NCBI GenBank assembly: GCA_017406905.1
Contig: JAFQXN010000006.1
Span: forward strand, 124,001-188,000
DNA from: Candidatus Saccharimonadota bacterium
GTDB lineage: Bacteria; Patescibacteriota; Saccharimonadia; Saccharimonadales; Saccharimonadaceae
Length of the DNA: 64,000 bases
Direction of reading: 5' to 3'
Of this stretch, positions 19,357 through 21,144 are shown in pieces (the stretch's first letter is position 1; the number at the start of each line of letters is the position of its first letter). Under the pieces are notes generated by a model. It was not told the DNA's origin, made no database searches, and saw only the letters and a list, made by a program, of their open reading frames with translations. Made by a program: the position numbers and the translations under genes.

Positions 19357-21042
19357 CTAGCTGAATTTGCCAGTATTTGGCGCTTTCGGAATTACCTCTT
19401 CGTTTTCGCTACTACTTCTGCCATATCCACTCAGTTTTAATTCTACGCTCACAGCCTCTCCGCGCACGTCATCGCCCAGCGGTATTAAAGTCAATATATT
19501 CTCATTTACGCCAGTTAGTCCATGAATCACCACTTCAGGCTCTTCAATTATGCCTAGCACTCGCTCATTAAGTGCTACCAACACCTTGTGTCCGTTCGTT
19601 GTAAATTTCACCTTCATCGCACCATCGCCAATCTGCTTTACCTCATCTATCGTTAGCGAAGGTTTGGCTTCTAGTGCATCATCTTCTTCCACTCTCGGCA
19701 AACTATCATACCTGCTCATGATGTAATCAATCAAGAGGCTTAGCTCGTCAAAATCTGTCACCACTTTCCCGTCCGTTGCTTCCGCCAAAGCCTTATACAT
19801 TTCCGCATATTCCGGCGTAGTGATAATATAGAAATTCACCGGATCAATTCTCTTACTCAGTTGCACCACTTCATCAAAACTCATTCCATCTCTATCCGGC
19901 GACAAGAAATCCGCATCAGTTAGTACTACTAAAGATTTGGTCGAGCCTTGTTTCCACTCTAAATCAGTCATCACCTTAAACGACGCTGACAATAATGACT
20001 CCGGCGTGTCGCCCCCGCCATCCGCCGTAATATTTTGCAATTCTTCTTGTAAAATTTCCAAAGTACAATCATTAAATCCACAATGTTTTACCGGCTCATA
20101 AGGGTCGTCCAGATCACGATAATCATACAATGCCACTCTTCCCCCCGAGTTTAAAGTTTCCGTTGCCAGTCTCAGCGCCTCCGCCTTATACTCATCTATC
20201 ATGCTAGCCATTGAACCAGTTGAATCAATCACAATCGCCGTATCGTGCGGAGAAGAAATGTGATTTTCTATTCCAAAATACTGTGTAATCTTATCAAAAA
20301 TTACCCGTGATGCATCTTCATACAAATTCTCCGATACATACGCCAAATGGTCGCTCATGCTAAGATGCGAGCTGCAGAAAATATCTCTCTTATTGCACCA
20401 TGTTCCAACCTTTCCCGTGAAATCCTCAGGCTCATACGGAATATATGCCCCCAGCAGCCCTTTATATGCTGCACAATCTGGCACGTACATCCGATAATCC
20501 GACAATTTACCCCCACGGCACGCTGCCGGCATTACTCCCTGGCCTTCTGGCAAGTATAATTTAGGATCCCCGAACGTCGCCGCATAAATCACTCTATCCG
20601 CTCTTAAACTCCCTAATGCTTTTGACACCACCATCGCCCCCTGCGAGTATCCACCCAATACATATTTAGTCTTTGAACACCCAGAGTTATTTATTAATTT
20701 GTCAAGTTTTTTCACACCGTCCTTCACGCTTTCACCAAACTCATAGGCCTCGCCCGCTCCAAAGAAAGCTCTTGCTGCCACTCCAATATCATCCACTCCT
20801 ATACCAATTGCCGGATAGTCTAAGTCAATAAATTCATAATCCAAATCTGTTGTTACCAACTTAATTTCTATTGTCTTTTTATATTCCAAGTAATTCTTAT
20901 CTACCCACCTTTCTCCGCCCGAACCCCGCGCAAATACCACTCTTACGTCTGGGCAACTTTCAGCCTGCGCAATTCCGCTCGGCATGCTTGCCATTATTAA
21001 CCCCACCGCCAGAGCTAGATACACACATTTCTTCCCTCGCAT
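19357..21042 (-). CDS. Secreted cutinase-like esterase fused to a VWA domain
   Basis: A 561-residue exported protein. A signal peptide (about 1-27, ending IAQAES) is followed by a cutinase-type alpha/beta hydrolase: VVFARGSGGE, nucleophile in LGGYSQGAM, DPKLYLPEG and a late histidine (SDHLAY). From about 262 a von Willebrand A domain begins with the metal site DSTGSMAS and includes VVLTDADFL. The end holds a small beta domain and APNTGKFS. Cutinases cleave esters of lipids or polymers and are common in Actinobacteria. A GAGGAG ribosome site precedes the ATG and a promoter lies at 21068-21097, unlike the leaderless neighbours. Confidence 0.85.
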   Translation of the reverse strand: MRGKKCVYLALAVGLIMASMPSGIAQAESCPDVRVVFARGSGGERWVDKNYLEYKKTIEIKLVTTDLDYEFIDLDYPAIGIGVDDIGVAARAFFGAGEAYEFGESVKDGVKKLDKLINNSGCSKTKYVLGGYSQGAMVVSKALGSLRADRVIYAATFGDPKLYLPEGQGVMPAACRGGKLSDYRMYVPDCAAYKGLLGAYIPYEPEDFTGKVGTWCNKRDIFCSSHLSMSDHLAYVSENLYEDASRVIFDKITQYFGIENHISSPHDTAIVIDSTGSMASMIDEYKAEALRLATETLNSGGRVALYDYRDLDDPYEPVKHCGFNDCTLEILQEELQNITADGGGDTPESLLSASFKVMTDLEWKQGSTKSLVVLTDADFLSPDRDGMSFDEVVQLSKRIDPVNFYIITTPEYAEMYKALAEATDGKVVTDFDELSLLIDYIMSRYDSLPRVEEDDALEAKPSLTIDEVKQIGDGAMKVKFTTNGHKVLVALNERVLGIIEEPEVVIHGLTGVNENILTLIPLGDDVRGEAVSVELKLSGYGRSSSENEEVIPKAPNTGKFS

Positions 21043-21144
21043 TTTTCTCCTCTATTACTTTTGCGAGATTATATTCATAAAATCGTAAAATATTCAACCC
21101 CTCATCAGTTGCTTATGGTATAATTAAACTAATCTGGAGGTACT
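21043..21144. promoter_or_regulatory. Divergent promoter region, cutinase-VWA / dCMP deaminase
   Basis: Leftward: TTGAAT (21092-21097), 18 bp, TATAAT (21068-21073), then a short leader with GAGGAG. Rightward: TATAAT (21119-21124), then a leader with a strong GGAGGT site before the ATG at 21145. Both genes have leaders and ribosome sites. Confidence 0.6.

Follow-up and report, generated by a model that had tools for sequence, protein, structure and literature searches.

Some Saccharibacteria inhabit the guts of animals, where these minute cells presumably live on the surface of other bacteria. In the stretch of 64,000 nucleotides analysed here (the window), which comes from a saccharibacterial genome of 584,732 bases in 13 contigs, one gene joins a cutinase to a von Willebrand factor A (vWA) domain and ends in a peptide that resembles a sortase signal with no membrane helix behind it. 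What would such a protein do for its owner, and how would it be kept in place?

The gene encodes 561 amino acids from an ATG codon with GGAG, a ribosome-binding-like sequence, directly 5′ of it (Table 1). The sequence-only reading had proposed a secreted cutinase with a vWA domain, and both halves of that proposal were borne out. The two Pfam families scored above their cut-offs (PF01083 Cutinase, 63.3 bits against 25.9, E 3.6e-17; PF25106 VWA_4, 38.4 bits against 27, E 1.2e-9), with PF13519 falling below its own (22.0 against 27 bits), and a Sec signal can be read at the N-terminus. By a crude count, 59/62 proteins of the genus have a signal-like N-terminus. No carbohydrate-binding domain was matched in the protein by Pfam. 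From the promoter-like and terminator-like sites on either side, the gene would seem to form a transcription unit by itself; in the region such sites are no more frequent than chance would have it (six promoter-like sites against 4.3 expected, one terminator-like hairpin against 1.3 in shuffled sequence).

Table 1. Features of the cutinase-vWA gene and its protein (positions in the window, residues of the protein).
Feature	Position	Strand	Basis
Cutinase-vWA gene, 561 aa	19357..21042	-	ORF and Pfam
Putative Sec signal peptide, residues 1-27	20962..21042	-	Sequence reading: hydrophobic core, then AQA-ES
Cutinase (CE5-type alpha/beta hydrolase) domain, residues 29-246	20305..20958	-	Pfam and fold match
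Putative catalytic Ser133 codon (GYSQG)	20644..20646	-	Alignment
Putative catalytic Asp220 codon (CNKRDIFC)	20383..20385	-	Alignment
Putative catalytic His232 codon (SDHLAY)	20347..20349	-	Alignment
vWA domain, residues 263-448 (Pfam match 269-427)	19699..20256	-	Pfam and fold match
MIDAS-type residues in vWA: D273-x-T-x-S277 (T275), T346, D376; all present in the window protein			
C-terminal beta-sandwich, residues 463-534	19441..19656	-	Model secondary structure; PKD (Fn3/PKD-like) there in relatives
Conserved end PKAPNTG-KFS, residues 552-561, no membrane helix	19360..19389	-	Sequence and conservation
Promoter-like TTGAAT-18-TATAAT 5′ of gene	21068..21097	-	Consensus match only, weak
Terminator-like hairpin, 17 pairs, 3′ of stop codon	19303..19342	-	Weak

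Is the hydrolase half likely to be active? Residues S133, D220 and H232 align with chain positions 105, 160 and 173 of Humicola insolens cutinase (4oyy_A), and all three are invariant in 27/27 aligned proteins; across the wider genus set the counts are 62/62, 62/62 and 60/62 respectively. The sequence-only reading had left room for the catalytic Asp and His to be missing, but both are there, and loss of the catalytic residues is ruled out by the alignment together with its invariant columns. Ser133-Asp220-His232 is thus the predicted catalytic triad, an assignment that comes from the alignment. Modelled alone, the cutinase domain (pLDDT 71.2, pTM 0.74, with pLDDT below 50 in the approximate ranges 160-202 and 219-229) adopts the cutinase alpha/beta-hydrolase fold and superimposes on 1oxm_A with a VIA Z of 16.5 (rmsd 2.9 over 168 aligned residues). 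This was the best Z among the 50 matches listed by VIA-align, which comprised cutinases, cutinase-like enzymes, acetylxylan esterases and Rv3802c of Mycobacterium tuberculosis; the acetylxylan esterase 1bs9 was the best Foldseek match and equals the cutinases by Z. The window protein therefore has its fold and its Ser-Asp-His residues in common with cutinases, CE5 acetylxylan esterases and the mycobacterial Culp proteins (Rv3802c), and differs from the matched cutinase and CE5 structures in its vWA fusion and in its sequence, to which they are about 18-24% identical.

The model of the whole protein, built on the 27-row alignment (pLDDT 71.7, pTM 0.58), places this alpha/beta hydrolase before a vWA domain of Rossmann fold, a seven-strand beta-sandwich (463-534) and a disordered linker; the C-terminal tail is modelled at low confidence. 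The vWA model comes closest to an integrin beta I domain (integrin beta3, 3ze2_D; VIA Z 21.2, rmsd 2.2, 183 aligned), with which it has in common the fold, the D-x-[ST]-x-S motif and the third Asp. In the genus, D273 is kept in 56/59 rows and S277 in 54/59. The MIDAS Asp/Ser/Asp are conserved across the family, and the Thr position varies. An earlier suggestion of a metal-dependent adhesion domain agrees with the integrin-type vWA and its kept MIDAS residues; metal dependence need not be strict in every member, as the Thr is variable. Fusion to an esterase and this variable Thr also set the window protein and its family apart from integrin beta I and other vWA domains.

The fusion recurs far too widely for an accident of one assembly. 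A cutinase match was obtained in 129/295 genomes of the family and in 69/74 genomes of the window's genus (rows counted), which leaves five genus members with no match; in a sample of 379 genomes of the phylum only 12 had a cutinase, eight of them family members, so that the gene is rare outside the family. For comparison of the proteins we combined 110 family loci, from which weak, fragmentary and some sister-genus rows had been left out, with 29 loci of relatives and the window (140 in all, 128 after removal of repeats), and searched them for vWA with a profile made from the 27-row alignment of the window protein and its relatives. The domain was detected in 60/62 proteins of the window's genus and in 23/23 further relatives from the 29-locus set, as well as in 9/15 proteins of minor genera, and in only 2/28 of the sister genus g11. 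The sequence-only reading had raised the prospect that relatives would lack the fusion; the genus counts dispose of that, and we give practically no credence to an artefact of assembly or annotation, or to an open reading frame that arose by chance, because the same domain order and the same chromosomal place are found in many independent metagenome-assembled genomes. In two members of the window's genus (L159 and L163) no vWA was detectable, and cutinase, sandwich and a tail-like end were kept; together with the two of 62 proteins that have another residue in the His column, they indicate that neither part is indispensable.

Its chromosomal place, between the genes for dCMP deaminase and BipA, is conserved: among the 29 relative loci, several of which end at contig ends, dCMP deaminase was present in 27 and BipA in 25. 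Identity among relatives is 53-71% for the cutinase-vWA protein against 84-88% for the flanking BipA, and this faster change fits a surface protein. The gene is, then, a chromosomal, vertically kept and fast-changing one. Large secreted proteins are encoded between the cutinase-vWA and BipA genes in three relatives (L035:8013-10281, L039:8129-10064 and L032:8113-9751), two of them with PxTG and a transmembrane segment; the interval is a variable surface-protein spot in some relatives.

In a tree of the cutinase domain alone, the window's genus and g11 group together (95/91). The two vWA-bearing g11 proteins pair with each other (93/72) and are sister to the nine other g11 rows of that tree, a placement for which loss of vWA inside g11 is the simplest reading. 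The cutinase genes of g11 show a further peculiarity, an in-frame TGA in 12 of 28 (L028, L112, L113, L129, L135, L164, L168-L171, L174 and L178). It often falls at columns where relatives have Trp (22/24 and 10/10 at two columns). RF2 scored above its cut-off in 42/45 genomes, and in 5/5 TGA-bearing genomes inspected the sole tRNA-Trp seen was tRNA-Trp(CCA). The TGA codons may reflect readthrough, decay or ambiguous decoding.

Taking these features together, we infer that the window protein is probably an active ester hydrolase at the surface where the epibiont touches its partner, held by the vWA domain and carried on a sandwich stalk. The protein would leave the gut Saccharibacterium by Sec export; its adhesion-type vWA domain, on the beta-sandwich stalk, would hold the esterase against the partner's surface, and the cutinase domain would split an ester-linked lipid (or another ester), by which fatty acids would be freed or the partner's envelope loosened. 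The substrate might instead be plant material, the esterase acting on cutin, suberin or acetylated xylan of feed particles with vWA and sandwich as its holder. CE5-type folds do cover acetylxylan esterases besides cutinases, with 1bs9 a case in point, and 18/29 relative loci come from samples named as ruminant gut or rumen (sheep, goat, cattle, yak, buffalo and roe deer). Such a habitat is weak evidence, since the genome contigs searched are rich in ruminant metagenome-assembled genomes; the mostly ruminant origin fits a partner lipid and a plant ester alike. Moreover, epibionts with small genomes are not known to use polysaccharide as food, and the protein has no matched domain for binding carbohydrate. 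On balance a plant target seems improbable, and an ester of the partner's surface is the reading that we prefer.

How would the protein be retained? The sequence-only reading had pointed out that APNTGKFS looks like a sorting signal with no membrane helix after it, and this kind of end proved to be widely kept within the genus. In the window protein only KFS follows APNTG, and the best mean hydropathy of any 17 residues within the last 90 is 1.27. Among 81 complete C-termini of the genus and the relatives of the 29-locus set, 74 carry P-x-[TSAC]-G inside the last 14 residues; in 1000 shuffles of the last 60 residues the count averaged 1.23 and never exceeded 5, a control that flatters the pattern, which was chosen after the tails had been inspected, although the margin is still large. 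The consensus is [I/V]-P-K-A-P-[N/D]-T-G-[R/K]-R, with P preceding K in 62/74 tails and T, A, S and C filling the T position 57, 7, 6 and 4 times. The protein ends two to five residues past the Gly in 71/81 and exactly two past it in 46. In three of the seven proteins that lack the motif at the end, it lies further in or is a variant (PNTS, PNTG or PQTG, then other sequence).

The ends differ between genera when they are split by a crude hydropathy rule into those with a transmembrane (TM) segment and those with the motif. Of 60 complete proteins of the window's genus, 52 had the motif and no TM segment, two the motif plus a hydrophobic segment and six neither (two further C-termini were missing), against 26/28 hydrophobic, TM-like ends in g11, where one protein ended in the motif (L023, which has kept vWA) and one in neither; the minor genera had six TM ends and six with neither, and three C-termini were missing from the sequence set. 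Tethering in the sister genus would thus be by a C-terminal membrane helix, and in a homologue from Arthrobacter, described below, by LASTG, a TM segment and RRRR; in the window's genus the PKAPNTG tag would stand in place of the helix. That the tail is the remains of a frameshifted TM segment is disfavoured, as genomes independent of each other end the frame directly behind the tail, and do so with differing stop codons.

Because the window's genus has no helix here and has kept a conserved tag at the very end, we infer that the tag is most likely a signal for retention or delivery. It could be a working sortase substrate that needs no helix, the protein being fully exported before a sortase, from the epibiont or from its partner, couples it to a surface. 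APNTG resembles the xPxTG of TM-bearing proteins from the same genome, where canonical-looking ends (motif, helix and basic tail) carry VPDTG, MPNTG, LPNTG, TPETG and APETG; a stricter listing has an additional LPNTG (L085) but no longer the TPETG of L096, and among its entries is a membrane protein, L074, that is likely to be a false positive. One of the proteins on that genome's contig C9 (L097, at about 275-295 kb) is a secreted protein of 1325 residues with the canonical-looking end APETG, TM and KR. Three sortase matches exceed the cut-off in the window's genome, and the Arthrobacter homologue has a full sortase signal. Like substrates of the LPXTG type, the window protein combines, by sequence reading, a signal peptide with xPxTG near the C-terminus; unlike them it has no hydrophobic helix or basic tail past the motif. 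The known sortase signals all need both, and we therefore do not class the protein as a sortase substrate, since the helix is a defining feature that was tested for, although it may work like one. The T is replaced by A, S or C in 17/74 tails. Sortase itself explains nothing, being near universal in the family (293/295 genomes), and in one genome that carries the cutinase (G277) sortase was not matched. Profiles of sorting signals in Pfam and NCBIfam gave no match at E up to 1; such profiles take in the helix, and a match was likewise missing for the canonical tail of the Arthrobacter protein. A helix-free sortase tag is accordingly possible and, in our judgement, rather doubtful.

The tail could also be a remnant, or a docking peptide that has nothing to do with sortase and binds, for example, another surface protein, with the esterase simply being released. 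The tolerance of A, S or C at the T position and the missing TM segment agree with this, as does the finding that the cutinase-vWA protein is the only secreted protein found to end at the motif in the window's genome and a 330-kb contig of a relative (G163). A remnant, however, would not be expected to persist behind a hypervariable linker in 74/81 proteins. We regard a remnant or docking peptide as a serious contender that falls somewhat short of being probable.

The earlier suggestion of a link with Actinobacteria was upheld by plasmid records, among which 24 had a cutinase match, all of them from Actinomycetota. The best (E 3e-26), and the closest match from an annotated record, comes from Arthrobacter sp. 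zg-Y1110, an isolate of marmot gut, in which a plasmid of 400 kb carries an open frame for 831 aa with a GTG start (NZ_CP104273.1, 311829-314324; L188:5824-8319). The existing annotation covers the protein from the vWA domain onwards only (WP_231711996.1, 'PKD domain-containing protein'), which leaves some 355 residues, those of the cutinase half, without annotation in the table used. The domain order is that of the window protein, a secreted cutinase followed by vWA and a PKD/Fn3-like stalk; the Arthrobacter protein differs in its canonical sortase signal (by reading; LASTG, hydrophobic helix, RRRR), its length and its high GC. It is 35% identical to the window protein over 479 columns and 47% identical to the homologue of another saccharibacterial genome (G058) over 675. 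The gene has a GC of 0.609 against 0.659 and 0.647 in its flanks, which is neutral or speaks weakly for arrival by transfer.

Four Rhodococcus plasmid proteins (WP_231783644.1, WP_268656063.1, WP_192378962.1 and WP_138846271.1), annotated 'Cutinase family protein', also carry cutinase and vWA in one chain, the first with PKD too (Pfam). They occupy a far branch of the tree, score low (15-24 bits) with the saccharibacterial cutinase model and have neither a PKAPNTG-type tail nor a C-terminal membrane helix. Three Rhodococcus cutinase-vWA proteins (L194, L195 and L196) end in glycine-rich repeats, e.g. FPGTGSA...FGR.

In trees of the fused domains the Arthrobacter protein nests among the saccharibacterial ones (98/95 and 96/93), and forcing Saccharibacteria together cost 11.6 log units (AU p 0.028), or 14.8 (p 0.011) when four long rows were removed, a test whose clade was chosen with the tree already in view and whose actinobacterial rows came from plasmids only. 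The nesting belongs to the fused-domain trees alone: in the cutinase-only tree the position of Arthrobacter has too little support to be resolved (39/78), and one Rhodococcus fusion protein is placed within g11 at the end of a branch 4.6 long, which must be artefactual. The direction implied by the sequence-only reading, from host to epibiont, is not favoured by a fused-domain tree that puts Arthrobacter inside Saccharibacteria, at an actinobacterial sampling that is thin. As a marker of common descent we also considered a 'lid' motif, LPEG plus VPDC, present in 50/60 genus proteins, 23/23 further relatives and Arthrobacter, and in 0/28 of the sister genus and 0/15 other saccharibacterial proteins; it does not support a place for Arthrobacter next to G058 and could be read against it, and we give it no weight. 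A scan of viral contigs returned no relative that would indicate phage origin, and phage records yielded only short LysB-type matches to the cutinase domain (25% of the query among the matches listed) and none to the Arthrobacter protein.

The domains are known, and the cutinase-vWA fusion as such already exists in Actinomycetota, in the Rhodococcus plasmid proteins. As far as our literature searches show, what is new is that a saccharibacterial genus has such a protein in nearly all its members, and with a tail that is sorting-like yet helix-free; in titles and the beginnings of abstracts, with subscription papers and preprints outside the search, we found no paper on a saccharibacterial cutinase.

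The molecules of contact between epibiont and partner are largely unknown, and the cutinase-vWA protein offers a near-universal, fast-changing secreted candidate in one gut genus, with an enzyme activity and an adhesion fold that can both be named. The copy on the Arthrobacter plasmid is a concrete case of a family common to Saccharibacteria and Actinomycetota. The boldest combination of these observations, that the tag works as a helix-free sortase signal coupling the exported esterase-adhesin to an outside surface, possibly through the sortase of an actinobacterial partner, and that the gene family has moved between the two groups, strikes us as a long shot; if true, the epibiont would be decorating its partner with an esterase of its own making. 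The tail thereby poses the question of whether a sortase-like motif can serve without a membrane helix.
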